From positions 5,445,826-5,509,825 of the forward strand of contig OU696578.1 in NCBI GenBank assembly GCA_916048095.2: 64,000 nucleotides of DNA, in the 5' to 3' direction. The stretch comes from Sacculina carcini (taxonomy: Eukaryota > Arthropoda > Thecostraca > Sacculinidae). Positions 1,522 through 25,850 of this stretch are shown in pieces. Both the position numbers and the translations under genes were made by a program. Every line of letters starts with the position of its first letter. The first letter of the stretch is position 1. The notes beneath the pieces are model-generated. The model was given only the letters and a program-made list of their open reading frames with translations, searched no databases and was not told where the DNA came from.

Positions 1522-1711
1522 TGTAGCCGATGCGCCACACTCAGTGCATTTTATCTTTATTTTATTGTCATTGCTATTATTATGTATTCATTTGATCATC
1601 ACATTATATCGCATTATCATGTTATATATAATTATGTATGTGCTCGATCTGCTACATGTTAAAATGTTTATTATGCATCGGTGGCGCAAGCAATACACAC
1701 ACGAGTCTTAC
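1522..1711 (+). repeat. 5' LTR of Ty3/gypsy element 1, first piece
   Basis: It matches 12818-13007 base for base apart from about three substitutions. The copy stops at the TTAC where the LINE inserted and resumes at 8728. Confidence 0.95.
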
Positions 1712-1741
1712 GATGTGTTACACGAGTGTGTAACACATCGT
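1710..1741. repeat. Perfect 14-bp hairpin at the 5' junction of LINE A
   Basis: 1710-1723 is the exact reverse complement of 1728-1741, with the 4-nt loop GAGT. It sits at the boundary between the interrupted LTR and LINE ORF1, where homology to LINE B starts. It may be a snap-back product made when reverse transcription ended and the 5' end was joined. Confidence 0.85.
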
Positions 1742-2826
1742 CCGGCGACTCGGCCAGGTGGATTGTATGTTCGCTTTGTTCCACCTGGGCGCACATCAAA
1801 TGCGCATCCTTGAGTGGCGTTAAAGCGGACCACATACGGCAGGTCAATTGGGTCTGCACACCGTGCCTATCCAAGGCTAAGCTGGCGCTTCAGATCCAGG
1901 AGGATGTGTCTCGCATGCGGGAGCGGCTTGATGCCGTTGAGTCGACGCTCTGCTCGATTGGTGGGAAGCAACAGCAGTTGACTTCTGATGTTGTGGCTGC
2001 TCCGGCAAAGAGGCCCACTTATGCTGTCGTCCTACAATCTCGAGGCAAATCACCGCTGCGTCCCAAGATGATCGCGCCGTTGCTTCGCGATGTCCCAGTT
2101 GAGTCGTCCAGACAATCTGCGAAGGGTGGGCTAATCATCAGATGCGCCTCTTCCCACGATGCCGAGCGAGCGCTGAACTGTGTGCGGTCAGCTGATCCCC
2201 AGATTGATGCTCACTGTACCAAAGCGGCATCTCTCAGACCTAAGGTCACACTCGCCAACGTGCCACTGGATCTCGAGCCGGACTCGTTCATTGAGCTTAT
2301 TCGCCGAAAAAACCCTGTTCTGGGCGCTCTACATGATAGCGCTGTGAAACTGCTCTTTTTCACCCGAATTCGGAACGACACTCGCCATGCTGTCCTTTCG
2401 ATAACACCCTCCGCCAGAGCGGCCATCCGGTCTGTGGGTGACCGGCTTTTCGTGGAACTGCGTACTTGCCCAGTTTACGACCGCTACTGGGTCTCCCGCT
2501 GCGCACGTTGTGCGGGGCTTGGCCACAGTGAAGCGAGGTGCTTGCGGGCCGAAACGTGTGGCAACTGTGCAGGACCCCATCGTTCCTCTCAATGTGACCG
2601 TTCACTCCCGGATAAGTGCAACAACTGTGCTTCCTCCTCTCGCCCACACGCTCATTCTGCTTTCCTATCTTCATGCCCTTCGTTCATCTCAGTTCGCAAC
2701 TCAATTCGTCATCGCACTGCTACATCTGATGATCTTTTGCCTCAACCCTCTTCCCTCTCCTCTCCTGCCGCTCCAGCCTCATCGTCTCTTCCGTCTTCCT
2801 CTCAACATCTCTCTTCTCGGGCCTGA
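1739..2826 (+). CDS. LINE A ORF1, PHD finger plus zinc knuckles (5'-truncated)
   Basis: Encodes the nucleic-acid-binding ORF1 protein of a CR1/L2-like LINE, which packages element RNA into the retrotransposition particle (family knowledge). The N-terminus carries most of a PHD-like Cys/His finger: C-x2-C before WAHIKC, then CTPC. A helical stretch with RERLDAVEST follows, then a central domain, then CCHC-type knuckles (CARCAGLGHSEARC, CGNCAGPHRSSQC, CNNCASSSRPH) and a Ser/Pro-rich tail ending at TGA 2824-2826. The first Cys pair of the PHD finger seen in the 24.6-25.7 kb copy is altered at the truncated 5' end, so the native start is missing. ORF2 follows immediately in another frame. Confidence 0.85.
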
Positions 2827-2829
2827 CTA

Positions 2830-4182
2830 CTTCCTCCAACATCATCCTTCTCTGATTCTCTCCCCTGTGATAACTCTTCCTCAGCTCTCCCTCCGCCCCC
2901 AGTTCTAGTACAATCCAATCAACACTCTCCAGCATCTCTCTCTGTCGGACTCCTCAATATTCGATCCTGCCGCCACAAAACAACTTATCTGTCCCATCTG
3001 GTCTCCTTCCATCTCTTATCCATTATATGCCTTGTCGAAACTTGGTTGCTGGACACCGATCTTCCATCCTTTCTATCTAACATACCCTCCGATTTTTCCT
3101 TCATCCATAAGGCCAGAACTGATCCTAAATCCCCTGGAGGTGGAGTGGGCTGTATGTTTTCTAAGTCTCTTCCTATTTCTCTTCTACCTGATCCTATTCC
3201 TCCCCCTTCTTCCTTTGAGTTCATTTCTCTTTGCCTTTCGTCGTACCTATCCTATCCTAAATTTTGTATTCTTATTGTTTATCGACATAATCATCCTTGC
3301 ACTACTTCATCTTTTTTCTCTGAATTCTCCTCTCTTATTGAAGCTATTGAATCTTCCTTCTCTAGTTGTTATCTTGTCCTCGGCGATTTTAATTTCTGGG
3401 TCGAATGTCCTGCTATTTCCTCATATTCCTCGAATTTTATCTCTCTTTTTGATTCTCATGGTCTTGTATCTCCTGTTTCTTCTCCCACACACATTTCGGG
3501 CCACACTCTTGATTTAGTTCTTTTCCCTTCTCCTGTTCTCTCTACTGATTCTCCTCCTTCCGAAGTTTTTGTTCTTCCCCCCGACTCTTCCTTCTCTGAC
3601 CATAGTCTCATTCTTACATCACTTCCTGCCTCCGGACCTCCTAATTCAATGCCTTCCCCTACCTTTTCTCGCAACTACAAATTTTTTTACCCTTCTCTCT
3701 TTCAGACCCTTCTTGCAAATTCCTTTCCTCTACATATTCTTTACTCTCTTCCTCCCTCCGATATTTATCCTCTCCTCTTTTCTACTCTATCCCTCACTAA
3801 CAACCATTTGTTCCCTCTGACTCTCCGTTCTTCTCGTCCTCGTTCGTCTCCTTGGAATAATCCTAACCTTGATCGTCTGAAACGTCGTTCTAGGGCGTTG
3901 GAGCGTACCTGGCGACGCACTCGCCTCTCTTGTGACTGGTCTACTTTTTGCTCTGCTCGCTCATTATATATTTCTTCTCTAGCATCCTCCAAGCAAGCTT
4001 ATTACTTGTCTCGACTTTCTTCTCTTTCTCGATCTCCTAAAGCTCTCTGGAACACACTCAACTCCCTTTCTGGCCTTCGCTCGCCCTCAGCTGTTTCCTC
4101 TCTAACCGCCAACGAGCTTTCCTCCTATTTCACAAGCAAAATCATTTCCGCCCAATCTAGAATTCCTTCTTCTGCTTTCCTC
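2830..4182 (+). CDS. LINE A ORF2, N-terminal part: APE-type endonuclease
   Basis: First half of the ORF2 polyprotein that nicks target DNA and primes reverse transcription. Motifs in order are LLNIRS, ETWLLD, IVYRHNHP, GDFNFW and SDHSLIL, the hallmark residues of apurinic-type LINE endonucleases. The frame is open from just after the ORF1 stop with no clear ATG before the endonuclease, so the translation start is unknown and the left coordinate is approximate. The frame is broken at 4182 by the TTAGG palindrome and resumes at 6921; joining across one TCCTC copy keeps the frame and matches the homologous region of LINE B. The linker before the RT is rich in Ser, Leu and Pro. Confidence 0.88.
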
Positions 4183-4213
4183 AGTAGAAGAGTTCACCAC
4201 TTTGTCACATTTT

Positions 4214-4520
4214 AACCTAACTTTTTTGTGTATACCTAACCTAACCTAACCTAACCTAACCTAACCTAACCTAACTTTTTTTAGTTTTTTTTAACCTAAC
4301 CTAACTTTTTTAGTTTTTTTTTTTAACCTAACCTAACCTAACCTAACCTAACTTTTTTTTTTAACCTAACCTAACTTTTTTTTTTAACCTAACCTAACTT
4401 TTTTTAGTTTTTTTTTTAACCTAACCTAACTTTTTTATAGTTTTTTTTAACCTAACCTAACCTAACTTTTTTTTTAACCTAACCTAACTTTTTTTTTTTA
4501 ACCTAACCCAACTTTTTTTT
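4214..4520. repeat. Telomere-type (CCTAA)n array, left arm
   Basis: Runs of CCTAA (TTAGG on the other strand) occur in blocks of two to eight units separated by T-rich spacers; the longest uninterrupted run is at about 4226-4256. TTAGG is the canonical arthropod telomere repeat. It degrades inward into CCCAACCC-like variants. Confidence 0.92.
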
Positions 4521-4559
4521 CTTTATTCTATTCCTAACCCGACCCAACCCAACTTTTAG

Positions 4560-4960
4560 TTTTATTTCTTATTCTTCCTTTCTTATTATATTTATTCTTT
4601 ATTCTATGCTCAACCTAACTTTTTTTTCTTTATTCTATACCCAGCCCGACCCAATCCAACTTTTATTTTCATTTCTTATTCTTCCTTTCTTATTATATTT
4701 ATTCTTTATTCTATGCTCAACCTAACTTTTTTTCTTTATTCTATACCCAGCCCGACCCAATCCAACTTTTATTTTCATTTCTTATTCTTCCTTTCTTATT
4801 ATATTTACTCTTTATTCTATGCCCAACTTTTATTTTTTATTTCCTATTCTTCCTTTCTTATTATATTTATTCTTTATTCTATGCTCAACTTTTATTTTTT
4901 ATTTCCTATTCTTCCTTTCTTATTATATTTATTCTTTATTCTATGCCCAACTTTTATTTT
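4560..4960. repeat. Degenerate tandem array (about 60-100-bp units), left arm
   Basis: Repeated blocks combine a TTCTTATTCTTCC-like stretch, a TATATTTATTCTTTATTCTATG stretch split by variants, and a CCAACTTTTATT stretch, at least five times. The mirror copy lies at about 6138-6538. Reading frames over this array are hydrophobic low-complexity and are not genes. Confidence 0.8.
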
Positions 4961-6574
4961 TTTCCTTTATTTCTATTTTATGTCACGATACTCATTATAT
5001 CGGGATCGCCAAGTCGATGTTTGGCAGAGACGTGAATATAATAATTTTCAATCATACTTGAAATATATATAAAAAACGGTTTGACTAAATCGGTCGCAAA
5101 CACAATGTTCCAATATGACGATGAATCACTCGCCACGTTTATATAAAGTGTCTGGTTTATGTCAAATACTGCGGTAAGGATTAAAATGCCAGATGAATTC
5201 ATTGGCGTCAAGCCAAGGATGAATATTTTGAATATATTTACCTGATACACAGGTATGGGATTAAAACATTTGCCGGTAACAAAGACCAAATTTACACACA
5301 ATTTATGTAAATGTAGCCGAAACGAATGCTTGTGAATCACTAGCTACGTTTATATAACGTGTCTGGTTTATGTCAAACACTGACTAAATCGGATTAAAAC
5401 GCTATTCGACTGTGTCGGAATTGATACAAAAATGACTTGCAACGAAATGACCTTTGTGTATTTTCACTTGATACACAATTATGGCAAATATACAAGTGGA
5501 AATCATGTAGAATCATATTGACGACACGATTCAACAAACATTTGTGTTCACGATGTGTTCGTTGAATCGTGTCGTCAATATGATTCTACATGATTTCCAC
5601 TTGTATATTTGCCATAATTGTGTATCAAGTGAAAATACACAAAGGTCATTTCGTTGCAAGTCATTTTTGTATCAATTCCGACACAGTCGAATAGCGTTTT
5701 AATCCGATTTAGTCAGTGTTTGACATAAACCAGACACGTTATATAAACGTAGCTAGTGATTCACAAGCATTCGTTTCGGCTACATTTACATAAATTGTGT
5801 GTAAATTTGGTCTTTGTTACCGGCAAATGTTTTAATCCCATACCTGTGTATCAGGTAAATATATTCAAAATATTCATCCTTGGCTTGACGCCAATGAATT
5901 CATCTGGCATTTTAATCCTTACCGCAGTATTTGACATAAACCAGACACTTTATATAAACGTGGCGAGTGATTCATCGTCATATTGGAACATTGTGTTTGC
6001 GACCGATTTAGTCAAACCGTTTTTTATATATATTTCAAGTATGATTGAAAATTATTATATTCACGTCTCTGCCAAACATCGACTTGGCGATCCCGATATA
6101 ATGAGTATCGTGACATAAAATAGAAATAAAGGAAAAAAATAAAAGTTGGGCATAGAATAAAGAATAAATATAATAAGAAAGGAAGAATAGGAAATAAAAA
6201 ATAAAAGTTGAGCATAGAATAAAGAATAAATATAATAAGAAAGGAAGAATAGGAAATAAAAAATAAAAGTTGGGCATAGAATAAAGAGTAAATATAATAA
6301 GAAAGGAAGAATAAGAAATGAAAATAAAAGTTGGATTGGGTCGGGCTGGGTATAGAATAAAGAAAAAAAGTTAGGTTGAGCATAGAATAAAGAATAAATA
6401 TAATAAGAAAGGAAGAATAAGAAATGAAAATAAAAGTTGGATTGGGTCGGGCTGGGTATAGAATAAAGAAAAAAAAGTTAGGTTGAGCATAGAATAAAGA
6501 ATAAATATAATAAGAAAGGAAGAATAAGAAATAAAACTAAAAGTTGGGTTGGGTCGGGTTAGGAATAGAATAAA

Positions 6575-6885
6575 GAAAAAAAAGTTGGGTTAGGTTAAAA
6601 AAAAAAAGTTAGGTTAGGTTAAAAAAAAAGTTAGGTTAGGTTAGGTTAAAAAAAAACTATAAAAAAGTTAGGTTAGGTTAAAAAAAAAACTAAAAAAAGT
6701 TAGGTTAGGTTAAAAAAAGAAGTTAGGTTAGGTTAAAAAAAAAAAGTTAGGTTAGGTTAGGTTAGGTTAGGTTAAAAAAAAAAACTAAAAAAGTTAGGTT
6801 AGGTTAAAAAAAACTAAAAAAAGTTAGGTTAGGTTAGGTTAGGTTAGGTTAGGTTAGGTTAGGTATACACAAAAAAGTTAGGTTA
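6575..6885. repeat. Telomere-type (TTAGG)n array, right arm
   Basis: Mirror image of the left-arm array: blocks of TTAGG separated by A-rich spacers, the longest run at about 6825-6862. Poly-A/T spacer lengths differ slightly from the left arm, which explains a 2-nt offset between inner and outer pairing registers. Confidence 0.92.
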
Positions 6886-6920
6886 AAATGTGACAAAGTG
6901 GTGAACTCTTCTACTTCCTC

Positions 6921-8507
6921 GTCACACATACCACCTCCCTATGCAAATTCTCATCCTTTTCTCATCTTGAAATTTCTGACTTCTTATCTCTTCTCTTCTC
7001 CCGTAAATTTCTCTCGTCTCCTCCTGATCCGATTAACTTCAGTATAATTGCTCCTGCTATCGACACCCTGACTCCTTATTTACTCCATCTTATTAACTCC
7101 TCCTTCTTACATGGAAATTTTCTTGCTGATAAGCACGCCTATGTTCGCCCTATCCTCAAGAAACCCTCGCTTGAACCTTCCTTATGCTGTAACTACCGTC
7201 CTATATCCCTCCTTAGTTTTTCCTCCAAACTCCTGGAATCTGCCATCTTTTCTCAGTTATCTCCTTTCATTTGTAACGTCCTTGACATTCACCAATCCGG
7301 ATTTCGTCCTTCTCATAGTACTGAATCTGTCCTCATCTCGGTCACTGAAGGTATTTTGTCGTCATTCTCCTTTCGAAAATCCATTATCCTTGTCCTTCTT
7401 GACTTAAGCTCAGCATTTGATCTTGTAGATCATGAAATTATCATTAAAGACCTTTCTCACATTGGTGTTTCTGATTCCGCGCTCTCCTTGCTTCGCTCCT
7501 ATTTGCATAATCGATCTTACTCTGTCCAGTTCAACTCTTCCGTCTCTAATTCGATCCCACTTACCTCTGGTGTACCTCAAGGGTCTATCCTTGGTCCTCT
7601 TCTTTTCAATCTTTATATGTCCTCTCTCTGCCCTATATTTCGACGCTGGTCTATCCCTTTTCACATATATGCTGATGACATCCAATTCTATATACCTTGT
7701 CCCTTTTCTGACCCTGCTCTTCTGTCTGGTATACTTTCTGATATATCTTCTTGGACCTCCTCCCGTCGACTTCTTCTGAATACTGATAAATCAGAATTTC
7801 TTGCTCTTGACACTCCTCGTTTGTCGCCTCCTCTTTTGCCTATATCTCTCTCTTCGTCTGTTAGAAACCTTGGCATTATCTTTGATTCCTCACTTTCCTT
7901 CTCTGCCAATATTCTTGCTACTGCTCGCATCTGTCGCCTTATACTCCGCTCTCTCTATCCTATCCGTTCATGCCTCGACCAGCCCTCTTCTATCAAGCTT
8001 GTTCAATCACTCATCTTTTCTAGACTGGATTACTGCAGCTCGCTCCACTTCAAGTGTCCTAAATCTTCCTTGAAAATTCTCCAGCGTGTGATGAACCAAT
8101 CCTGCCGTTTTGTTTTATATCCTGCCTTCTGCCGCCATACTTCTCCTTATCTCTTCAAGTTCCGCTGGCTTCCCATCAAATCTAGAATTCACTTCAAAAT
8201 TTGCTCCATAATCTTCAAACTGTTGCACTGTCCCACTAAACCTACGTATCTCTATGCCTTACTTTCTCTCTCTGAAACCCCCTCTTCTCGACATCCTGCC
8301 CCTTTAGCCTGCCCTCGCGCTTTAAATGAGTCCGCGTGGTCTTCCAAATCCTTCTCCTTTTTCGGTCCGCGTCTTTACAACTCTCTCCCCTCTCACATCA
8401 CGTCATCGTTTTCATATCGCTCATTTGCTGCTTCTCTTCGTAAATATCTTTTTTATCTATCCTTTGATCCCACCACTCACGCCTTGACTCCTTTCGCCTC
8501 CCTCTGA
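6921..8507 (+). CDS. LINE A ORF2, C-terminal part: reverse transcriptase
   Basis: Continuation of ORF2 after the palindrome. The frame is open from 6921. RT motifs in order are KKPSLEP, NYRPISLLSFSSKLLE, HQSGFRPSHSTES, LDLSSAFDLVDH, GVPQGSILGPLLFNLYMSSL and the catalytic YADDIQFY. SSVRNLGIIFDSSLSF, SRLDYCSSLHF and a C-terminal basic domain with SRIHFK follow, all typical of CR1/L2-type LINEs. It ends at TGA 8505-8507, followed by a 3' UTR of about 215 bp and a GTT tail. No frameshift or stop was seen in the RT, so apart from the palindrome and the 5' truncation the protein looks competent. Confidence 0.93.
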   Translation, partial: VTHTTSLCKFSSFSHLEISDFLSLLFSRKFLSSPPDPINFSIIAPAIDTLTPYLLHLINSSFLHGNFLADKHAYVRPILKKPSLEPSLCCNYRPISLLSFSSKLLESAIFSQLSPFICNVLDIHQSGFRPSHSTESVLISVTEGILSSFSFRKSIILVLLDLSSAFDLVDHEIIIKDLSHIGVSDSALSLLRSYLHNRSYSVQFNSSVSNSIPLTSGVPQGSILGPLLFNLYMSSLCPIFRRWSIPFHIYADDIQFYIPCPFSDPALLSGILSDISSWTSSRRLLLNTDKSEFLALDTPRLSPPLLPISLSSSVRNLGIIFDSSLSFSANILATARICRLILRSLYPIRSCLDQPSSIKLVQSLIFSRLDYCSSLHFKCPKSSLKILQRVMNQSCRFVLYPAFCRHTSPYLFKFRWLPIKSRIHFKICSIIFKLLHCPTKPTYLYALLSLSETPSSRHPAPLACPRALNESAWSSKSFSFFGPRLYNSLPSHITSSFSYRSFAASLRKYLFYLSFDPTTHALTPFASL

Positions 8508-8860: not shown

Positions 8861-9595
8861 ATGCCTCGTAGTAATCACTCTCATTCCATGGGTTCGGTGA
8901 AGGTCGACCTCCCGGTTTTCGACCCACTGGATGTGGACACCTGGATCGCAATGTGCGATAATTTGATGGCCGATAGTGGCATAAAATGTCAGACCACCAT
9001 GTTTCGCAAAGTTTTGGCGATGCTACCGAGAACCAATTTCAGGATGGTCAAAGATCTTGCAACCCAGAACCCACTCGCTAGCAACTGCTACGATTTGCTC
9101 AAAGCCAGACTGCGAAAGCGACTAGAGCTCACTCCGGCTGAGAAACTACAGCGTCTGGAGAATCTTCCGCGACAACTGGGCTCTCGGAAACCGTCGGAAT
9201 TGTACGGCGACCTCGCGGCACTGTACCCCAACGACACAGAACACGAAATCATCCAAGAGGTGTTTCTGTGTCGAATGCCGTCAGACCTCCGACTGCTCTG
9301 TCGCGAGTGGCTGGTCTCCAACAATTTGCGGGACACTGCACTGCGCGCAGACGCTCACTACCAGCCAGCGGCGACCGTTTCGCTTGCGGCACAGGTGACC
9401 GGCGACGCATACACAGCCACAGAGACAGACGAGGAGCCTCTAGTGGCGGCCACGAGAAGTTTTCGCTCGCGCGCTCAGTCGACACCCAGACGACAACAGC
9501 AACCGAAAGACGAGCAGCCGGCAGCGCGGCGTTGTCTCGGCTCGTGCTCATTTACGTCCGACATGGCGGGAAACGGGCACTGCAGCCGGCGGTAA
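8861..9595 (+). CDS. Gag of Ty3/gypsy element 1
   Basis: Starts at ATG 8861, 69 nt after the LTR, and runs 244 codons. It opens with a short basic segment, then a retrotransposon-gag-like domain (FDPLDVDTW, MLPRTNF, LKARLRKRLELTPAEKLQRL, LGSRKPSELY, LFLCRMPSDLR-like), then an Arg/Gln-rich RNA-binding tail. Family members usually finish with a zinc knuckle; here only a Cys/His-poor remnant is seen after residue 230 and the frame ends early. The protease follows in another frame. Because a second shift in pol returns to the gag frame, the original element was probably one continuous gag-pol ORF damaged by two indels. Confidence 0.85.
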   Translation: MPRSNHSHSMGSVKVDLPVFDPLDVDTWIAMCDNLMADSGIKCQTTMFRKVLAMLPRTNFRMVKDLATQNPLASNCYDLLKARLRKRLELTPAEKLQRLENLPRQLGSRKPSELYGDLAALYPNDTEHEIIQEVFLCRMPSDLRLLCREWLVSNNLRDTALRADAHYQPAATVSLAAQVTGDAYTATETDEEPLVAATRSFRSRAQSTPRRQQQPKDEQPAARRCLGSCSFTSDMAGNGHCSRR

Positions 9596-9599
9596 TGGC

Positions 9600-10505
9600 C
9601 ACGTCCGGCTGCCGTGAAAATCACCGCCTATTATTCGTCACAGACATGTCCGGCCGCAAATTCATGGTTGACAGCGGTTCCGAGGTTTCTCTGCTGCCAG
9701 CTCGTTCAACGGCATCAGCGGCGGCCCTCGACGAGCCGAAGTTACGTGCCGCCAACGGTACATCCATCCAAGTCTTTGAGGTCAACCATCGCTTGACTGT
9801 CGATCTGGGACTCGGGCGCACTTATTCGCTCGGATTTATTTCAGCAGCAGTTCCACACGCAATAATCGGAGCGGATTTCCTCCGCGAATTTGGTCTTGTG
9901 GTGGACATGAAACGGCACAAGCTAATCGACAGCGCCACATTCTTGTCCACCAGCAGCAACGCGTCGATCGTCACAACACACCCTGTGCTGACTCACATCA
10001 GTGCTGTACAGCGACCATGTGACGGACCGGAGTTCGCCGGTGTGCGCGCTTCAGCCGACTTCGCGCAGCTCGTCGCCCCACCTGACGGGTTTCCCGTTGT
10101 GAAGGTGCCTGGTGTCCAGCATCGCATCATCACACGAGGCAATCCAGTGTTCGCCCGCCCACGTCGATTAATGCCAGCCAAACTGTCCGCTGCCAGAAAA
10201 GAGTTATCAGAGTTGGTGGATCTGGGCATTCTGGTTTCCTCGTCATCGTGCTGGTCCAGTCCCATCCACCTCGTTGAAAAGGATGGTGGCACGGCTTTCA
10301 GACTGGTCGGGTGCTACGAGCGACTGAACTCCATCACGGTGCCCGACAGGTATCCCGTTCCCGACATTCAATCATTCGCCGATCAGCTCAGTGGTGCGAA
10401 TTATTTCAGCACAATTGATCTCCCGCGTGCTTTTGCTCAAGTTCCTCTGCAACCAGACGATCAGGAAAAATCTGCGATCACAACTCCATTTGGTCTTTTT
10501 TCAGT
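9600..10505 (+). pseudogene. Protease and start of reverse transcriptase, Ty3/gypsy element 1 (frame-shifted)
   Basis: Open in a frame different from gag. The aspartic protease has VDSGSEVSLLPA (active-site DSG) and the flap/C-terminal HAIIGADFL. After a linker come RT fingers: ARPRRLMPAK, LGILVSSSSCWSSPIHLVEKDGG, the altered RLVGCYERLN (usually R-P-C-x-D-Y-R-x-L-N), DRYPVPDIQSF and FSTIDL. The frame is lost at a T-tract near 10495-10501, and the same domain continues at 10500 in another frame. Confidence 0.85.
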
Positions 10506-12787
10506 ATACGCGTATGCCTTTCGTTTTGTGTAATGCTGCCCAAACTCTCCAGCGCCTCATGGACACAGTGCTGCGGGGCATGCCACGCGTATTTTGCTGC
10601 CTCGACGATGTCCTCGTCTTCTCTCCAGATGTCGAGACTCACCGCCGAGATCTGAGAGAACTCTTTCGCCGTCTCGGAGCGGCCGGCCTGGCCATCAAGC
10701 CAGAAAAGTGCGTCTTTGGCCAGCGTATTGTGCGGTTCGTTGGATTCAAAGTATCTGCACGTGGCATCGAGCCCTTACCAGACAAAATTGCTGATCTCGT
10801 GAGCATGCCGCCGCCCACCAGTTCCACTGAGTGCAGGAGGTACCTAGGCATGATTAACTTTTTCCACCGGTTCATTCCCAGGCTGGCTCAAACTCTCCAG
10901 CCCCTTCATGAGGTGGCGAACAACAAACGAAGTTTCGTGTGGGGACCTCTTCAAGTCTCCGCCTTCGAGAAGACGAAATCAGCGCTGGCTGCCGCTTCAT
11001 GTTTGGCATTTCCACAGGCGGATGCTCCGACGAAGCTAGTGGCAGACGCATCTGACTTGGCTGTGGGAGCTGTTGTGCTACAGTTCCAGAATGGTCATTG
11101 GGTACCGTTGGCGTACCACTCCCGCAAACTCACAGGCGCTGCCTTACGATGGTCCACTGGTGACAAGGAGCTGTATGCATTGTTCAGTGCGGTCAAAAGG
11201 TTCCGGCATCTACTTGAAGGCCGGCCCGCATTGCAGCTGTGGACCGACCATAAGCCATTGGTGCATGCCTTCACCAGCACCACCGAACGTTCGGCTCGTG
11301 TCCAAAGACAGCTCGCTTATCTGAGTGAGTTTTCCACGGACATACGACATATCAAAGGGTCCGAAAACGCTGTCTCGGACTGTCTCAGTAGGCCTCCGTC
11401 AGACGCAACACGAAACGTCTCTCAGCTTGCAGTGGACGCTCAACACTCGCTCGATGTCAGGCGCCTCGCGCTCGCTCAACACAGTGCCGCAGATGTCGCC
11501 GAGCTTGCCTCTTGTCCTTCGCTTCGCGTGGAAGTACGTCCAGTCGAGGGTGTTCCGTCTGGACTGCTGGTGGACGTTTCCACTGGTGTTGATCGGCCGC
11601 TGCTGCCTGAGTCACTGCAGCACGAAGTGTATCGCGCGATACATAATCTGCATCACCCAAGTGCCCGTGTCACAAAGCGCCTCGTCTCTGAACGATACGT
11701 CTTCAAGCGCATTTGGGCCAAGGTGTCATCGTGGGCGAAGACGTGCGTTCGCTGTCAACAATGTAAGATCGCTCGTCACCAACACACTGCCCTGCGTAGA
11801 CCGCCGACACCTAGCGGACGGTTTGAAGCACTCCACGTCGATGTCGTCGGTCCTCTACCAGCTGTCAATGGTTATCAGTACATTTTCACCATCGTCGACC
11901 GCTTCATGAGGTATCCGGAGGCCCTGCCGATGCTTGACGCTACCGCAGCTTCTTGTGCGAGGGTTCTGCTTGACTGGGTAGCGCGATTTGGTTTGTGCCT
12001 CTGTGTGACGTCTGATCGTGGCAGGCAATTCGTTTCGGACCTTTGGCGAGAGTTTTGGTCACTCCTAGGAGTCAGATTGTCCACAACGTGCGCGTACATG
12101 CCGCAACAGAACGGCCTGGTGGAACGTGTACACCGGCAGTTAAAAGCGTCTCTTACCGCCGCATTGATGGACAACAACGACTGGCTCACTGCACTGCCTG
12201 TTGTCTTGATGGGTCTTCGTGCCGCCCACAAGCCTGACATAGACTCCACGCCGGCGGAGATGGTGTTGGGCGAGAAAATGCGGTTGCCTGGTCAGTTCTT
12301 TTCGCAGACCAACGAGGTTCGCCCGGCCTGTGAGGTGGCGTCTCAACTGGCCACTGCCTTCCAGCGACTTCGTCCGACTCCAACGGCGTGGCACCGCCGA
12401 TACGACACCTCCCCGTTCGTGTCACAGTCACTGGCCACCGCTACACACGTCTTTGTACGCGTGGATGCTCATCGGCCGCCATTGACACCGCCGTATCGCG
12501 GTCCGTTCCCTGTGCTGGAGCGCGGTGACAAAGCGTTTGTGCTCGACTACGGTGGCAAGACCGACACTGTCGCCGTAGACCGCCTCAAGCCGGCGTTTCT
12601 GGTGCGCGACAATCAGTCTGGTGCGGACTCTCCCCCGATCTCTACAGATGATCGTGATGCCAGTCAATCAGCCCCTCAAACTGCGCCAGACGCCTCCACC
12701 GACGGCCAGAGTTCGCCTGTCCAGCCGCCGCGTATCGTATGGTCACGCCGCTCTAGACCCGTTCGCCCTCCTGGTCGGTTCTTGTGA
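10500..12787 (+). CDS. RT (rest), RNase H and integrase of Ty3/gypsy element 1
   Basis: A long open frame covers the rest of pol. RT continues with RMPFVLCNAAQTLQRLMD and the catalytic CLDDVLVFS, then SARGIEPLPDKI and the YLGMINFFHRFIP thumb. RNase H has VADASDLAVGAVV, GDKELYALFSAV and TDHKPL. Integrase has an H-x3-H/C-x2-C finger (HNLHH...CVRCQQC) and the DDE core (LHVDVVGPLP, TSDRGRQF, PQQNGLVERVHR). The tail carries a GPFPVLERG/DRLKPAF SH3-like end and a Pro/Ser-rich region. No chromodomain or envelope gene was seen. It stops at 12787, just before the polypurine tract. Catalytic residues look intact, so this part alone is not obviously dead. Confidence 0.93.
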
Positions 12788-15233: not shown

Positions 15234-15246
15234 ATCTCCCCCTCTA
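15234..15246 (-). promoter_or_regulatory. Polypurine tract of Ty3/gypsy element 2
   Basis: On the minus strand tagagggggagat lies directly upstream of the 3' LTR and overlaps the pol stop codon. Confidence 0.8.
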
Positions 15247-17589
15247 AAAATCGCAAGCATAGTCTCCAAAACGACTGGGCGGTCTACGGACGCGACTCGA
15301 CCTTCGGACAGTCTGAACCTCATCACCAGCTTCGACTCTACTTTCGTCGTTTGCTTCGCCACCAGTCTCACCCGAGTGTCTGGATGCCTGTGGTCCGGAA
15401 GGATCTGAGTTTGAAAAATCAGTATTCGCCGGAGTGGTAGGGCTCGACGCGTCAGCTCGAGTCGCCGGTTCATTCACAGCATCACTGGAGATAACAGTAG
15501 ACTCACGATCAGTAGAAATATGTGATGGTGCCAAATGTCTTGTAGATACGGTAGTTTCGACACCTGCTCGATTTCGAATATGAGCATAATGTGAATTTGC
15601 CTGTATGAGTTCCACTTCTTCAACAAGAGGTTCATTTTTGCTTGCCCGTACGTGGCGCTTCAGAAGAACAGGACCTGGATGACAGAGCCAAGAAGGAACC
15701 GACGCACCTGAAGAAGAACGTCGTGTGAAGTTGAATAATCTTTCATGTGGAGTTGAATTGATAGATGTGCACAACAACGAGCGTATAGAATGCAGAACAT
15801 CCGGCAAAACAGTCTGCCAGTGCTGTGTCTGAAGACCACGAGACTTCAGAGCCATCAAAACACTTTTCCATATGACTCCGTTAAAACGCTCAACCTGACC
15901 ATTTCCTTGTGGATTGTAGCTCGTTATTCTGCTGCACGCTATTCCTTTTCTCATTAAGAAATCTTGAACCTCCCTGCTCATGAAAGACGATCCTCTGTCG
16001 CTGTGTATGTATGCCGGCATACCAAAAATGGAGAATAGATGCGCAAGGCAGTCGATGACAGTAGCGGCAGTCATGTTCGAACATGGATACACAAACGGAA
16101 AACGAGAATACTCGTCTATGATATTCAGAAAATAGCAATTCTTATCTGTGCTTGGTAAAGGTCCCTTGAAGTCTATATTTAAACGTTCAAATGGTTGTGT
16201 TGCTTTAATTAGACTAGTCTTCTCAGGTCGATTAAATCTTGGTTTGACTTCGGCACACACTTTGCATGACCGGATGATCTGTCGAACATCCTCTACAGAA
16301 TATGGCAAATTCTTGATCCTGATGAAATGACACAGGCGAGTGACGCCAGGATGACATAAAGCTTCGTGGAGAGACCTCAACGCATCGGCACCACTGCAGG
16401 CTGCTCCACAATGAGGCCTGGAGATTATGTCAGGAGTCACATTCTCGTGACCTGGTCGGAAAACAATGTCGTAGTCGTAACAGGACAGCTCTAGACGCCA
16501 ACGCAAAATTTTGTCGTTCTTTATCTTACTTCTATGTTGCTTGTCAAACATGAAGCTCACAGATCTCTGATCAGTCCTTATGATGAAACGTCTTCCAGTT
16601 AGATAATGACGCCAGTGACGGACTGCTTCGATGATGGCCTGCGCTTCTTTTTCCACCGATGCGTATAATTTCTCTGGCCCTTGAAATGTTTTTGAAAAGA
16701 ACGCTACAGGGCGTCCATTCTGGGCCAGTACAGCGGCGATCGCCACGTCGGACGCGTCAGTTTCCACGTCAAAAGGAAGTGTCTCATCAATCGCTTGCAC
16801 TACTGAATTTTCTATTTCACCCTTGAGTTTTTCGAAAGCGATCTCAGCTTCCTTGGAGACTGGAAAAGTAGTGGTGCTGCTTAACGGGTGAACCTTCTGA
16901 GAGTAGTTGTGGATCCAATGCAAATAATACGCAAACAAACCCAATGATCGATTCAGTGACTTTCTGTCCTTGGGTAAAGATAATTCGCGTAGAGGACGAA
17001 GTCTCTCTGGATCTGGGCGTTTCTTGCCATCTTCCACCACATAGCCTAGAATACTGAGACACTTCGTCGAGAATGAGCATTTTTCATCGTTGTAGCTGAT
17101 GTTTCTTCTTTTCGCCGCTGCCATGAATTTTTCAAGGTTTGAGTCATGCTCTTCTTGAGTCATACCACATATGGTGACGTCATCCAAGTAGGCAAACGTC
17201 CCAGAGAGCTGTTCTTCCTGAATCAAAGAATCCATGATCCGTTGGAAGCAGGCGACGCCGTTCGTAACTCCGAATGGAATTCGAGTAAACTGATATAAAC
17301 GGCCGCCAGCTTGAAACGCCGTATATGGCTTGTCTTCATTCTGAATCGGGATCTGATGATACGCACTCCTCAAGTCTATCGTGCTAAAAATTCGGTAACG
17401 CGCAATTTTGTCCACGGTATCGACAATTCGTGGTAAAGGGTAGCTGTCGAGAAGCGTGAACTTGTTTACTGTCTGCGAATAATCAACAGCCATGCGCCAT
17501 TTCTTCGTGCCATCTTTGACCACAACAATCTGTGCACGCCAAGGAGAATTTGACGGTTCAATGACTCCTTCCTTCAACAGCCGCTGAGT
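15244..17589 (-). CDS. Pol of Ty3/gypsy element 2 (RT, RNase H, integrase)
   Basis: In the same frame as gag-protease, separated by one stop codon. RT shows KEGVIEPSNSPWRAQ, MAVDYSQTVNKFT, the FSTIDLRSAYHQIPI motif, FTRIPFGVTNG and the catalytic YLDDVTICG. RNase H shows VETDASDVAIAAVLAQ, EKEAQAIIEAV and RTDQRSV. Integrase has the HHCC finger (HEALCHPGVTRLCHF...CKVCAEV) and the DDE core (LNIDFKGPLP, HSDRGSSF, NPQGNGQVERFNG). The C-terminus is Ser/Pro/Asp-rich and ends RVRRPPSRFGDY. All catalytic residues look present. A suppressed stop or a single reversion would give a full-length polyprotein. Confidence 0.95.
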   Translation of the reverse strand, partial: TQRLLKEGVIEPSNSPWRAQIVVVKDGTKKWRMAVDYSQTVNKFTLLDSYPLPRIVDTVDKIARYRIFSTIDLRSAYHQIPIQNEDKPYTAFQAGGRLYQFTRIPFGVTNGVACFQRIMDSLIQEEQLSGTFAYLDDVTICGMTQEEHDSNLEKFMAAAKRRNISYNDEKCSFSTKCLSILGYVVEDGKKRPDPERLRPLRELSLPKDRKSLNRSLGLFAYYLHWIHNYSQKVHPLSSTTTFPVSKEAEIAFEKLKGEIENSVVQAIDETLPFDVETDASDVAIAAVLAQNGRPVAFFSKTFQGPEKLYASVEKEAQAIIEAVRHWRHYLTGRRFIIRTDQRSVSFMFDKQHRSKIKNDKILRWRLELSCYDYDIVFRPGHENVTPDIISRPHCGAACSGADALRSLHEALCHPGVTRLCHFIRIKNLPYSVEDVRQIIRSCKVCAEVKPRFNRPEKTSLIKATQPFERLNIDFKGPLPSTDKNCYFLNIIDEYSRFPFVYPCSNMTAATVIDCLAHLFSIFGMPAYIHSDRGSSFMSREVQDFLMRKGIACSRITSYNPQGNGQVERFNGVIWKSVLMALKSRGLQTQHWQTVLPDVLHSIRSLLCTSINSTPHERLFNFTRRSSSGASVPSWLCHPGPVLLKRHVRASKNEPLVEEVELIQANSHYAHIRNRAGVETTVSTRHLAPSHISTDRESTVISSDAVNEPATRADASSPTTPANTDFSNSDPSGPQASRHSGETGGEANDESRVEAGDEVQTVRRSSRVRRPPSRFGDYACDF

Positions 17590-18864
17590 CTATTTCTCGA
17601 TGAACAACCGATCTTGATGTGAGTACCTCCTGGACTTGGTTGGAATCGGATGACAATCTTCTGTCATGTTTTTGAAAAGTTCAGGTGGGTCCACTTTCAT
17701 GGCACTGAATCCACAGACAACGAGAGGTGGCAGATCTCCTCCGTACTTCAAAACTACATTGTCATGCATCTGCTGAAAATCTTGACCCAGAATAATATCT
17801 GAACACAATTGAGGCAGGACTGTCAAACGCACCCTATCGTATTGTCGACCATTAACTCTGATATTGACCAGACAATGTCCAGACGTTCGCGTGGAGAACG
17901 AAGTTGAAGCCATGGAAACAGTACTGGGTGATGGCTGAACAGTTAGCGAGTGGCGTTTAACGAGACACGGATGAATGAAACTTTCCGAGCTACCACTATC
18001 TACGAGACCGTCAACCTCCTCGTTAGCAATTAAAACCTTCACAGCCGCCTTTGACAATGAGCTCGGAGTGGCTGCCGACGTAGTAGATGCTATCATTTTG
18101 CCGCCAGAATCCACGTCTGTATTTGCAGCAGCTGTTGTCGGCCTTCCACGACACACTTTGGCAAAATGACCAGTTTTCTGACATTTATGACAGACAGCTT
18201 CTCGAGCAGGACACCTTGAGCGAGGGTGTCTTTGTAAACCACAAAAGAAACATTTCGCACTCACAGCACATGTAACAGCAGTGGTGTCATTATTTTCACA
18301 GAGTGAGTCGGCCGGGACACATGCCGCATGAGTTTCACCGTAGACAACAGAGTTATTCCGAGCCGACTCTAGAGCTCGCGCTTGGTCAAATATGGTAGTC
18401 AGTTCCAATGTTGTATTCTCCAGGAGGCGCTGTCGTATAGCTGACGACTGAAGTCCAGCAATGAATGCGTCACGTATAGACTCGTCACAATATTTTGTTG
18501 AAGTGACGGCCTGGAAATTGCACTCTCTGCTGAGAACTTTGAGAGCCTGAAAATACTCGTCAAGAGACTCTCCCACCTGCTGACGCCGAGTGGCCAGTCG
18601 GTGACGGGCAAACACTTCGTTTGATGGTCTGACATACTGCGACTTGAGACACTTGATAGCTTTTTCGTACGTATCACAGTCAGAAATAGTATCGTACACC
18701 TTTGAAGACACAAAATTGACTAGTAGTCCCAACTTGTTGGCGCTTCCTTGAGGAACGACTGTCAGAAAAAGCTCGAAAGTTTTGAACCAGTGTTTCCACT
18801 CTTGTGTCGCTGAAGACGAGGACGGGTCACAGTCCAACCTCTCTGGTTTGAGAAAGCGTTCCAT
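17590..18864 (-). CDS. Gag-protease of Ty3/gypsy element 2
   Basis: Starts at ATG 18864, 30 nt downstream of the 5' LTR, and reads MERFLKPERLD, a conserved opening for this metazoan Ty3/gypsy group as I remember it. The gag domain (KHWFKTFELFL, VRPSNEVFARHRL, DEYFQALKVLSRECNF, IRDAFIAGLQSSAIRQRLLE) is followed by two CCHC-type knuckles (CFFCGLQRHPRSRC, CHKCQKTGHFAKVC), which bind RNA. The aspartic protease follows, with VDGLVDSGSSESF and DIILGQDF. The frame ends at a TAG (17590-17592) just before the RT, where relatives read through in one ORF. Unlike many gypsy elements there is no frameshift between gag and pol. Confidence 0.93.
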   Translation of the reverse strand: MERFLKPERLDCDPSSSSATQEWKHWFKTFELFLTVVPQGSANKLGLLVNFVSSKVYDTISDCDTYEKAIKCLKSQYVRPSNEVFARHRLATRRQQVGESLDEYFQALKVLSRECNFQAVTSTKYCDESIRDAFIAGLQSSAIRQRLLENTTLELTTIFDQARALESARNNSVVYGETHAACVPADSLCENNDTTAVTCAVSAKCFFCGLQRHPRSRCPAREAVCHKCQKTGHFAKVCRGRPTTAAANTDVDSGGKMIASTTSAATPSSLSKAAVKVLIANEEVDGLVDSGSSESFIHPCLVKRHSLTVQPSPSTVSMASTSFSTRTSGHCLVNIRVNGRQYDRVRLTVLPQLCSDIILGQDFQQMHDNVVLKYGGDLPPLVVCGFSAMKVDPPELFKNMTEDCHPIPTKSRRYSHQDRLFIEK

Positions 18865-18875
18865 CTTATCGGATT

Positions 18876-18892
18876 GTTTTGTGATGAATAAA
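18876..18892 (-). promoter_or_regulatory. Putative self-primed primer-binding site of Ty3/gypsy element 2
   Basis: Directly after the 5' LTR (one spacer base) the minus strand reads TTTATTCATCACAAAAC. It is not TGG-led and not tRNA-like. It is perfectly complementary over 17 nt to 18924-18940 within the LTR. If transcription starts near 18940, the RNA's own 5' end can fold back and prime cDNA, as established for Tf1 of fission yeast. Start site and mechanism are inferred. Confidence 0.6.
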
Positions 18893-18893
18893 T

Positions 18894-19197
18894 TGTTATG
18901 AAAGATTGGCCTCAACGATAGGCTTTATTCATCACAAAACACACATCTCCTGAAACAAAAGAAAGTACAAATGGATATGTGAACCATAAAACGTTATATA
19001 TACAGGATAATTGTAAGTACACAATTAAACAAAATGATTGCCCAAAATGAGCTATTTACAGAATATTTAATACAGAAATATACCCGGAGATGTGCACGCA
19101 AAACACGATGGTGAAAGACAAAATATGTTGTTGTTATACAGAAAATACCCACAGCGCTGCCAGATGAGCGCACAAAAATAGCCAAGATTTCATAACA
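18894..19197 (-). repeat. 5' LTR of Ty3/gypsy element 2
   Basis: 304 bp, followed by the TSD TTAAG. It contains the complement of the PBS at 18924-18940, then a GCCTATCGTTGAGGC-type stem toward the PBS. Confidence 0.95.
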
Positions 19198-21638: not shown

Positions 21639-24590
21639 TCAGAGAGAGGCAAAAGGAGTCAAGGAATGAGTCACGGGATCAAAGGAAATTTCGACAAGAT
21701 GTTTACGTAGAGAAGAGGTAAAAGATCGATACGTGAGCGAGGAGGTGATATGAGAAGGGAGCGAGTTATATAATCGAGGACCGTAGAACGAGAACGATTT
21801 AGAAGACCAGGGAGATTCATTGAGGGCGCGAGGACAGCATAGAGGAGCAGAATGACGGGAAGTGGGATTAGAAGAGGGATAGAGCAGATCAGAAAGATAT
21901 AAAGGTTGATTAGGAGCATGTAAGAGTTTGAATATTATGCAGCAGATTTTGAAGTGAATGCGCGATTTAATAGGAAGCCAACGGAATTGAAACAGAAAAG
22001 GAGAAGTATGGCGACAGAAGATAGGATGCAAAACAAAACGACAGGACTGATTCATTACGCGCTGAAGAATTTTTAAAGAATAATTAGGACAGCTGAAGTG
22101 GAGTGAGTTGCAGTAGTCGAGCCTGGAGAAGATAAGAGAATGAATAAGCTTGATTGCAGAGGGCTGATCGAGACAGGGACGGATGGGATAAAGCGAGCGA
22201 AGAATCAAGCGACAAGTGCGAGCTGTAGAAAGGATATTGGTTGAGAAGGAAAGGGAAGAGTCAAAAATAACACCGAGATTTTTAACAGTCACTGAAAGAG
22301 ACAAGGGGAGGAAAGGAGGAGCAATACGAGGAGGATGAAGAGCGATAAATTCAGATTTAGAAGTGTTCAAGAGGAGGCGACGTGAGGAGGTCCAGGTCGA
22401 GATAGCAGAAAGTACGTCAGACAAGGTATTAGGATGCGAGAGAGAGCAAGGGAGATAGAATTGGATATCGTCTGCATAAATATGGAAAGGAATGGAGTAG
22501 CGCCTAAGGATGGGACAAAGAGAGGACATGTAGACATTGAAAAGGAGAGGACCAAGAATAGAGCCTTGAGGAACACCGGACTTAAGAGGGAGCACAGTGG
22601 AAACGGAGGAATTGAACTTAACAGAAAAAGTGCGACCATGCAAGTAAGAACGAAGTAGTGAGAGAGCGGAATGCGAGACACCGAGATGGAGGAGGTCATC
22701 GATGAGAATAGAATGATCAACCAAGTCAAAGGCAGAGCTCATATCAAGTAGAACTAGAAGAACAGAATGACGATAAGAGAAGGAGGAAAGAATACCTTGG
22801 GAGACAGAAATGAGAACGGATTCAGTAGAATGACCAGGGCGGAAACCGGATTGGTGAGAGTCAAGAGCATTGCAGACATAAGGGGATAACTGAGAGAAAA
22901 TTGCAGATTCGAGGAGTTTGGAGGAAAAGCTGAGGAGGGAGATAGGACGATAGTTACTACATAAAGAAGGATCGAGAGAAGGTTTTTTGAGGATAGGATG
23001 TACATGGGCGTGCTTGTCGGCAAGAAAATCACCGTGCAAGAAAGAGGAGTTGACTAAGTGAAGTAGGTAAGGAATCAAGGAGTTGAAGGATGGAACAATA
23101 ACTCGGAAATTAATGGGATCAGCAGGAGAGGAAACGAATTTACATGTGGACAGGAGAGAAAGGAAGTCGGAGAGGACCAGTTGAGAAAAAGACGAGAGCT
23201 GGCAGTGGGATGTAGTACGAGAGAGAGGGACATTCACGAGAGGGATTTTAGATTGCGCAGATTCAATTTTGTTCACGAAGTAGGAAGAGAGTTCGTCAGC
23301 AGTGAGAGAAGAACTAGCAGAGGGAGGACGGAGACCGCAGAGAGAGTTGAGTATATTCCAGAGGGCTTTGGGAGAGCGAGATAGAGAGGAAAGGCGTGAG
23401 GAGTAGTAAGCTTGCCTAGCAGAGGATAGGGAGGAAATATAGTTAGAACGAGCAGAGCAAAAGGCCGACCAGTCATCCGCGAGCCGAGTGCGTCGCCAGA
23501 TACGCTCCAAAGCACGGAGACGGCGCTTAAGACAAGTAAGAGAGGGACAGCTCCAAGGAGAAACACGAGGACGGTGGGAGCGGAACGAGAGAGGAAAAAT
23601 GAGGTTATTGATATCAGACAAAGTGGAGTATAAGAAGGGATAAATTGAAGACGGAGGGAGTGAGTGAAGAACATGCAAAGGGAAATGGTTAGATAGAAGA
23701 TTGTGAAACGTAAGAGGATTAAAATTCCTGAAATTTCTGAAAAGGGTGAATGCTGGTGGAGGATTAGAGGATTTACACGCCGGCAATGACGTAAGGATAA
23801 GACTGTGGTCAGAGAAGAGAGGATCAGGAGGAAGAACAATGACTTCGGATGGCGGTACATCAGAAGAAAGAACTGGAGAAGGGAAAAGGACTAGATCAAG
23901 AGAATGACCCGATGTGTGAGTGGGAGAGGAAACAGGGGAGACTAGACCATGAGAATCAAGAATAGAAATGAAAGTCGATGCGAAGGAGGAGCGAGAGGGA
24001 CAGTCAACCCAAAAGTTAAAGTCACCAAGGATAATGAAACGGCTGGAGAAAGAAAAAACTATAGCGTCAAGGAGCGAGGAGAATTCAGAGAAGAAAAGAG
24101 GAGTAGACCGGGGGTGATTATGCCGGTAGATAACGAGAATACAGAATTTATGAGAGGAGCGACTTGATGACATACAGAGTGGAAGAAATTCGAAAGAAGA
24201 AGGGGGAGGAATGGGATCAGATAAGAGAGATATTGGAAGAGATTTGGAAAAGATGCAGCCCACTCCACCACCAGAGAATTTAGAATCAGAACGAGATTTG
24301 TGAAGAAAAGAAAAGTTAGAAGGAAGGTTAGCCATGAAAGATGGAATATCAGACTCAAATAGCCAGGTTTCGGCTAGGCAGAGAATTGAAAGGACATGAA
24401 AGCAGAGAAGGTGGTTAAGGTAGGTGAATTTGTTTCGACAAGATCTTATGTTAAGGAAACCGATAGAAAAAGATGAAGAAGAGCATGAAGAAGCAGCAGG
24501 TTGAACATCAGGTGAGGAGTTGGAAGAATGGTGAAAGGAAGGCGAGGGGGCAGAGGAACGGGACGACGGCGCGGATGGAAGGGAAGGTAG
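21639..24590 (-). CDS. LINE B ORF2: endonuclease-reverse transcriptase
   Basis: A continuous frame of over 900 codons. The first ATG in frame is at 24335, but the frame is open upstream to the ORF1 stop and that part encodes the endonuclease start (GFLNIRSCRNK, LCLAETWLFES), so initiation is probably upstream or by reinitiation. Motifs in order: GGGVGCIFSK, VIYRHNHPRS, GDFNFWVDCP and SDHSLILTSL (APE-type endonuclease); then KKPSLDPSL, NYRPISLLSFSSKLLE, HQSGFRPGHSTES, LDMSSAFDLVDH, GVPQGSILGPLLFNVYMSSL, the catalytic YADDIQFY, FSRLDYCNSLHF and a C-terminal SRIHFK/GPRLYNSLPSH domain. No stop or frameshift was seen, so it is potentially functional. Confidence 0.95.
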   Translation of the reverse strand, partial: LPSLPSAPSSRSSAPSPSFHHSSNSSPDVQPAASSCSSSSFSIGFLNIRSCRNKFTYLNHLLCFHVLSILCLAETWLFESDIPSFMANLPSNFSFLHKSRSDSKFSGGGVGCIFSKSLPISLLSDPIPPPSSFEFLPLCMSSSRSSHKFCILVIYRHNHPRSTPLFFSEFSSLLDAIVFSFSSRFIILGDFNFWVDCPSRSSFASTFISILDSHGLVSPVSSPTHTSGHSLDLVLFPSPVLSSDVPPSEVIVLPPDPLFSDHSLILTSLPACKSSNPPPAFTLFRNFRNFNPLTFHNLLSNHFPLHVLHSLPPSSIYPFLYSTLSDINNLIFPLSFRSHRPRVSPWSCPSLTCLKRRLRALERIWRRTRLADDWSAFCSARSNYISSLSSARQAYYSSRLSSLSRSPKALWNILNSLCGLRPPSASSSLTADELSSYFVNKIESAQSKIPLVNVPLSRTTSHCQLSSFSQLVLSDFLSLLSTCKFVSSPADPINFRVIVPSFNSLIPYLLHLVNSSFLHGDFLADKHAHVHPILKKPSLDPSLCSNYRPISLLSFSSKLLESAIFSQLSPYVCNALDSHQSGFRPGHSTESVLISVSQGILSSFSYRHSVLLVLLDMSSAFDLVDHSILIDDLLHLGVSHSALSLLRSYLHGRTFSVKFNSSVSTVLPLKSGVPQGSILGPLLFNVYMSSLCPILRRYSIPFHIYADDIQFYLPCSLSHPNTLSDVLSAISTWTSSRRLLLNTSKSEFIALHPPRIAPPFLPLSLSVTVKNLGVIFDSSLSFSTNILSTARTCRLILRSLYPIRPCLDQPSAIKLIHSLIFSRLDYCNSLHFSCPNYSLKILQRVMNQSCRFVLHPIFCRHTSPFLFQFRWLPIKSRIHFKICCIIFKLLHAPNQPLYLSDLLYPSSNPTSRHSAPLCCPRALNESPWSSKSFSFYGPRLYNSLPSHITSSLTYRSFTSSLRKHLVEISFDPVTHSLTPFASL

Positions 24591-25715: not shown

Positions 25716-25850
25716 CGTTCGTATTACTCGAAATGTCCGCAACACCGCACGAATGACGCAATTAAACCGCAACGAGTCCAAGGACGCAAAAAGCAGCAGC
25801 AACGAGCCACAGACCAACGAATAGTAGCACCGATACACTTTTCTTGGTTA

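Follow-up and report, generated by a model that had tools for sequence, protein, structure and literature searches.

The view that Polintons replicate as free, linear, protein-primed DNA comes mostly by inference from the genes they carry. The hallmarks of Polinton/Maverick elements have been set out in several accounts (PMC8097293, PMC12220804, PMC5718144). Target duplications of 6 bp are given for vertebrate Mavericks, whose virions, by the same account, had not been observed (PMC8097293), and duplications of 5-6 bp are cited for related viruses and elements (PMC12220804). Among the papers listed in searches of the Polinton and adintovirus literature, none concerns palindromic or snap-back Polintons by its title or the start of its abstract; the search covers subscription literature thinly and is weak evidence of absence.

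Molecules of this shape are described from other linear DNAs. Adenovirus has linear DNA replicated by protein priming, and some of its defective genomes are inverted duplications of a single end, explained by strand snap-back; these palindromic genomes are known from passaged virus and not as integrated copies. Snapback genomes (SBG) of AAV are self-complementary, contain the left or the right moiety around a symmetric or asymmetric loop, and are described as a class of defective interfering genome and a major category of defective particle (PMC8235507). For pAL2-1 of Podospora, an invertron-type mitochondrial plasmid with terminal-protein-primed linear DNA and long TIRs, one account proposes panhandle intermediates and a snap-back mechanism (PMC1864894).

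The window, a stretch of 64,000 nucleotides from Sacculina carcini, holds a palindrome that resembles these molecules. With a probability of roughly 0.8, the comparisons below indicate that it is an integrated snap-back genome, that is, a defective, DI-like genome, of a Polinton/Maverick.

Structure of the window palindrome

Positions 4183-6915 form a near-perfect 2.7-kb palindrome with arms at 4183-5540 and 5556-6915 and a 15-nt core at 5541-5555. A preliminary description had proposed arms of ~1.36 kb, a 5-bp target-site duplication and arthropod-type telomere motifs in the arms, and all of these are present. In a global alignment of the left half with the right half, 1360 of 1369 columns are identical. 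Leaving the core aside, the arms differ by two substitutions, one in the outer arm and the other an A versus G in the 10-nt stem adjoining the core, and by two single-base poly-T indels. The termini read AGTAGAAGAG...CTCTTCTACT with TCCTC on each side, and the left arm contains 31 CCTAA units while the right arm contains 31 TTAGG units. The parts of the locus are the following.

3046-4182, plus strand: part of LINE ORF2 before the insertion, with an endonuclease domain (E 5.8e-06, slightly below the Pfam cut-off)
4178-4182, no strand: left target-site duplication TCCTC (sequence and half alignment)
4183-5540, plus strand: left arm, putative fold-back copy of the right end of a Polinton, terminus AGTAGAAGAG (arm comparison)
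4213-4520, plus strand, mirrored at 6577-6886: outer part of the TIR, CCTAA arrays with T runs between them (motif counts)
4489-4962, plus strand: AT-rich part of the arm, imperfect direct repeats at spacings of 107, 106, 62 and 62 nt
5287-5540, plus strand: 254 nt present only at the right end of full-length copies, past the 1,104-nt TIR (genome matches)
5531-5540, plus strand: stem TCAACAAACA of a pre-existing short inverted repeat, putative fold-back site of the strand (fold-point scoring)
5541-5555, no strand: loop of 15 nt, TTTGTGTTCACGATG, collinear with full-length copies (comparison with copies)
5556-5565, plus strand: second half of the stem, TGTTCGTTGA (fold-point scoring)
5556-6915, plus strand: right arm, whose inner part is collinear with other Polinton copies, as are the loop and the adjoining 10 nt of the left arm
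6916-6920, no strand: right target-site duplication TCCTC (sequence and half alignment)
6921-8507, plus strand: part of LINE ORF2 after the insertion, with a reverse transcriptase domain, frame unchanged

The palindrome interrupts a LINE, and the earlier suggestions that ORF2 continues in frame past it and that the unit inserted as a DNA element both hold. Removal in silico of the insert and one TCCTC restores 907 codons with no internal stop, and the rejoined product aligns with that of a second LINE in the window (21639-24335, minus strand) over 898 residues at 74% identity without a gap; the 5-bp duplication lies inside the LINE, whose flanks are not mirrored. In both LINE copies of the window (1681-8507, and 21639-25838 on the minus strand), the ORF for endonuclease and reverse transcriptase is preceded by one with a PHD finger. 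Two regions that resemble LTR retrotransposons, at 9268-12787 and 15244-18915 (minus strand), contain reverse transcriptase, RNase H and integrase domains, and the second additionally encodes gag and a protease.

The arms reach beyond the terminal repeat of the parent. Two copies on contig C6 (C6a and C6b) have a left TIR that corresponds to arm positions 1-1104 and no further, and a right end that corresponds to positions 1-1358; both window arms hold all 1358 positions, made up of the 1,104-nt TIR and 254 nt of right-end-only sequence. Because a deletion between two TIRs cannot mirror right-end-only sequence, an origin by internal TIR-TIR deletion is ruled out. The inner arm, thought at first to be unique AT-rich DNA, is indeed AT-rich in part, and the same DNA occurs in many Polinton copies: the 254-nt segment has at least 84 matching pieces, 41 of which span 253-254 of its 254 nt (40 of 266 candidates scored).

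The parent element

Across the 264-Mb assembly, at least 67 pieces match the window arm, with 40 out of 513 first-look candidates scored. In the genome search, the exact terminus AGTAGAAGAGTTCACCAC bounds elements on contigs C20, C6 (two copies), C3, C16 and C35, with the 5-bp duplications ACCGT on C20, ATAGT and GCATC for the C6 copies, CACAC for C3a, GTAAT on C16 and ATTTG on C35; the duplication on C9 is ACACA. Both termini were seen in 10 copies, the window copy with its TCCTC among them, and 8 of these have a 5-bp duplication, the exceptions being C4a and C11. The duplication of C3a lies within an AC repeat and is weak, and that of C9 adjoins such a repeat.

A longer, coding relative with the same ends is present on C35. 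This 16.5-kb copy (L019, L020) and a 17.1-kb copy on C6 (C6b; L013, L014) are full length, have near-identical ORF maps and carry TIRs of about 1.1 kb beginning AG (AGTAGAAGAG). The domain scan covered the C35 ORFs, C6b being judged by its ORF map. It detected a family B DNA polymerase in a 1,032-aa ORF (DNA_pol_B_2 PF03175, E 3.2e-47), an rve integrase (PF00665, E 2.8e-12), an A32-like ATPase (Pox_A32 PF04665, E 5.8e-08) and an adenovirus-type protease (Peptidase_C5 PF00770, E 3.8e-08). The best 120 of 154 matches of the polymerase include proteins from two wasps, Venturia canescens and Diachasmimorpha longicaudata, and from tilapia (Oreochromis), with which it shares 32-35% identity. A capsid search with the 621-aa and 458-aa ORFs of C35 gave no Pfam or PHROGs match at E up to 0.1; against PDB sequences the 621-aa ORF had no match and the 458-aa ORF one weak match (E 0.062), and none of the 36 relatives of the 458-aa ORF has an informative name. 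An IMG/VR scan with one protein did not find relatives of the element.

By its genes and ends, the parent of the window palindrome is a Polinton/Maverick with a 5-bp duplication, and it is filed as such despite the 5 bp because 5-6 bp are cited for related elements (PMC12220804). The window copy itself has no protein genes, each arm consisting of the TIR and the 254 nt of right-end sequence, and is a non-autonomous Polinton derivative. Of three options raised in the preliminary description, the non-autonomous Polinton-like one is correct. That description knew of no described family with this make-up, but the family is not a new one, since longer coding relatives with the same ends exist in the same genome.

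A 10.5-kb copy with its own 5-bp duplication (C6:6577427-6587949; L011/L012) lies 155 kb from the 17-kb copy and is more than 99.9% identical to it over the 8.7 kb compared. For an apparently full-length copy on C21 (7050745-7067762), termini were searched and not found. A polymerase-region probe has at least 41 matches (C37, C36, C18, C15, C9, C10 and others). Those listed are 99-100% identical throughout, a sign of very recent amplification that probably concerned a sub-family with a different TIR, AGTAGAAGGC. At C4:2569566-2587176 (L021-L023), sister-family ends, among them those of C4a, are clustered, and their flanks CCGTC/GACGG pair crosswise, as they might after inversion between elements.

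Telomere motifs in the ends

The telomere repeats belong to the ends of these elements. TIR segments with telomere arrays were compared in the window (4213-4520 and its mirror 6577-6886) and in L013, L014, L021, L037, L040 and L043. All seven segments, which represent four terminus types, carry TTAGG arrays in chromosome-end polarity. Read inward, CCTAA to TTAGG counts are 29:0 in the outer 378 nt of the window copy, 31:0 and 30:0 at the left and right ends of C6b, 40:0 in C4a, 32:0 in C9, 24:0 in C3b and 13:1 in C6c. Runs of at least two units number 16 within the window element versus three in the 61 kb of window outside it. Telomere repeats are a standing part of the Polinton TIRs examined.

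An integrated telomeric hairpin, another of the early options, is thereby set aside: with the motif in 7 of 7 Polinton TIR segments examined, derivation from a chromosome telomere is ruled out. Among 14 contig ends sampled, two consist almost entirely of (TTAGG)n (77 and 78 units per 400 nt). Another two have a longer satellite that includes a related motif, and three are N in the parts read; TTAGG as the host telomere thus rests on two ends. Why Polinton ends bear a telomere motif is a separate question that these elements raise.

Fold points and further palindromes

Around the centre of the window copy, a run that takes in the last 10 nt of the left arm, the loop and a portion of the right arm is identical at 278 of 278 nt to other copies (L012, L014, L020, L025), from which the left arm diverges at ATTCAAC[A/G]AACA. 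In the parent the order is TCAACGAACA, a 15-nt loop and TGTTTGTTGA, the two outer segments pairing at 9 of 10 positions by Watson-Crick bases and at the tenth as G.T. The left arm looks like the product of extension from a 3' end that had folded back on its own strand, the 5' end of that strand being the right terminus. The stem still holds the A/G difference, an indication that the two sides of the hairpin were each copied later. Fold points of the window copy and of C4a lie 13 nt apart, at 1330 and 1343 nt from the right terminus of the parent, just inside the TIR boundary, and this neighbourhood is perhaps a pause site.

Eight palindromes, the window copy included, were counted in the genome, and the seven others originate from either Polinton end. 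Their sizes, stem pairs and stem scores are listed below.

Window (C10): 2.7 kb; stem pairs 9/10, score 8
C20: 15.0 kb, right half; halves of 7,467 columns with 6 mismatches and 2 gaps; stem pairs 6/7, score 5
C3a: 10.8 kb, left half; halves of 5,275 columns with 1 mismatch and 1 gap; stem pairs 12/13, score 11
C16: 13.2 kb, left half; two aligned blocks with 40 and 13 mismatches; stem pairs 7/7, score 7
C4a: 2.3 kb, sister sub-family; stem pairs 12/14, score 10
C3b: right arm cut, right end lost; stem pairs 8/10, score 6
C9: 17.7 kb; stem pairs 5/5, score 5
C11: 5.4 kb; stem pairs 5/5, score 5

The palindromes on C20, C3a and C16 were found through paired arm hits, mirrored ORF maps (C20 and C16) and piece-versus-piece comparison; those on C9, C3b and C11 were found by probes matching twice in opposite directions, and their centres and ends were read. 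A 5-bp duplication bounds five of the seven palindromes with both ends seen (window, C20, C3a, C16 and C9; none in C4a or C11), and where duplications and both termini are present the flanking DNA is not mirrored. Genes for integrase and polymerase are missing from the window element and from C20, and the folds of C3a, C3b and C16 fall inside the polymerase gene. Two candidates, C6c (4704085) and C2 10216702-10226438, whose centres or ends were not placed, stand outside the count of eight, and C4 3.90/3.91 Mb and C2 6.082/6.085 Mb were left out of it. Pairs at C35 2.38/2.42 Mb and C4 11.58/11.60 Mb were rejected, as inverted copy pairs can mimic symmetry over several probes.

All eight centres can be placed on a copy that is non-palindromic at that spot, and all lie at pre-existing imperfect inverted repeats of 5-14 nt in the parent, with loops of 11 to 153 nt; the stems of C20, C9 and C11 are short. 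A stem score of at least 5 is reached by 8 of 8 palindromes versus 0.55% of 400,000 random fold points (0.56% without the TIR). The random points sample both halves of C35. Other copies served for the scoring of C9 and C11, and C35 served for that of C20, from which it differs near the fold; the fold points themselves were read from overlapping alignments, which the null leaves unmodelled. The features of snap-back were found together: one end is duplicated in inverted orientation, the centre falls on a short inverted repeat already present in the parent, and the loop is collinear. They are least clean in C11, where the centre is collinear with the parent over 24 nt before one arm skips about 0.7 kb. 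As in the snapback genomes of AAV, this pattern of eight centres is the signature that snap-back priming would leave on a strand that has the terminus as its 5' end.

The right-end probe has 43 placements over more than half its length, six in three palindromes (window, C20 and C4a) and 37 elsewhere (40 of 266 candidates scored); the integrase probe has 40 placements, six in three palindromes (C3a, C16 and C11) and 34 elsewhere (40 of 329 candidates scored). Among the matches listed, this corresponds to three of about 40 right-end loci and three of about 37 integrase loci, so that the counted palindromes amount to roughly one locus in 12-13.

Origin of the palindrome

Under the snap-back reading, a linear Polinton would be copied from its right end, and the new strand, with the right terminus as its 5' end, would halt about 1.33 kb in. 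Its 3' end TGTTTGTTGA would anneal to TCAACGAACA, 15 nt upstream on the same strand, through nine Watson-Crick pairs and one G.T, and extension from the fold would copy the strand back to its own terminus. Replication of the hairpin would then give a double-stranded palindrome with the right terminus at each end, which an integrase supplied in trans by another Polinton could insert into the LINE with a 5-bp duplication. We infer terminal-protein priming, the nascent state of the folded strand, the identity of the polymerase and the trans action of the integrase, with folding during strand-displacement synthesis; a second round of copying that turned the hairpin into a duplex would fit the A/G difference in the stem.

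The main alternative is that the folded strand came from a break. A break in an extrachromosomal or excised Polinton, followed by 5' resection, would let the 3' strand fold at an inverted repeat and be filled in by a host polymerase before replication and integration. The geometry is equal, as resection also produces a strand that has the terminus as its 5' end and an unpaired 3' end in the interior, and judged by sequence alone a nascent strand and a broken, resected one would fit the palindrome equally. No sequence feature names the polymerase, and Pol delta is described as acting in foldback priming at breaks (PMC10622511). Strand-displacement synthesis, however, yields such 3' ends without any break, and three palindromes among about 40 right-end loci and three among about 37 integrase loci, within the matches listed, seem frequent for breaks; both points lean slightly against this origin, which we consider unlikely.

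Rearrangement after insertion is a much poorer candidate. It would have a normal Polinton in the LINE made palindromic by chromosomal template switching (origin-dependent inverted repeat amplification) or by TIR recombination. Host routes to inverted copies through hairpin-capped DNA are described (PMC10766183, PMC4689423), and the C4 cluster looks rearranged. Inverted amplification within a chromosome should nonetheless mirror the flanks or retain the other end, whereas the window copy, C20, C3a, C16 and C9 have both termini, 5-bp duplications and unmirrored flanks. TIR recombination, for its part, is unable to put 254 nt of one-end-only sequence on both arms. Such an event is very improbable here.

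An assembly or library artefact, a hairpin read or chimera, is more improbable still. Palindromes are a known artefact, yet the LINE is unmirrored, a TCCTC stands at either end of the insert, the LINE reads in frame once the insert is taken out, the asymmetric core is collinear with that of other copies, and other palindromes have duplications of their own; the preliminary description had likewise thought a read chimera unlikely. A self-standing foldback-type transposon family multiplying as a palindrome, also among the early options, would explain the structure of a long-TIR element almost free of spacer and is nevertheless scarcely credible and was ruled out, as the eight resolved centres all differ, the termini and duplication length are those of Polintons, and no second copy sharing the window's centre was seen among the arm and 254-nt-probe matches listed; the fold-back is how the molecule would have been made.

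Implications

The eight palindromes of this one genome read as a fossil record of Polinton replication, made before integration: the fold of each lies at a short inverted repeat, and a 5-bp duplication bounds five of the seven two-ended ones. They would provide a simple marker of free replication that can be searched for in any long-read genome, and they suggest a defective-genome biology in transposons. Common filters can hide them: a survey of protist polinton-like viruses, for instance, kept only elements with 6-80 kb between TIRs (PMC12220804).

A wider scenario can be put forward as speculation that is improbable as a whole. Polintons would exist partly as free linear molecules with telomere-like ends, their replication would regularly shed snap-back genomes, and the integrase would fix these in the germline. 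Transcription of such copies from host or LINE promoters might then yield long hairpin RNA and small-RNA silencing of the parent, which would so supply its own brake.

Comparison with known systems

Among the systems described, pAL2-1 differs in that the inverted repeats there are of flanking mitochondrial DNA, whereas the flanks of the Sacculina palindromes are unmirrored. The snapback genomes of AAV are similar in being self-complementary molecules derived from either end, but AAV is a parvovirus, and here the source is a linear element with long TIRs whose palindromes are germline insertions with target duplications. Adenovirus shares with the window copy the inverted duplication of one end, with the difference that the copies here are integrated. 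The parent agrees with Polintons/Mavericks in its protein-primed-type family B polymerase, rve integrase, A32-like ATPase and adenovirus-type protease, as read in C35, and in its length of 16.5-17.1 kb, TIRs beginning AG and short target duplication. It departs from them in duplications of 5 bp instead of the usual 6 and in TIRs with telomere motifs, and the window copy departs further in being gene-free and a palindrome of one end.
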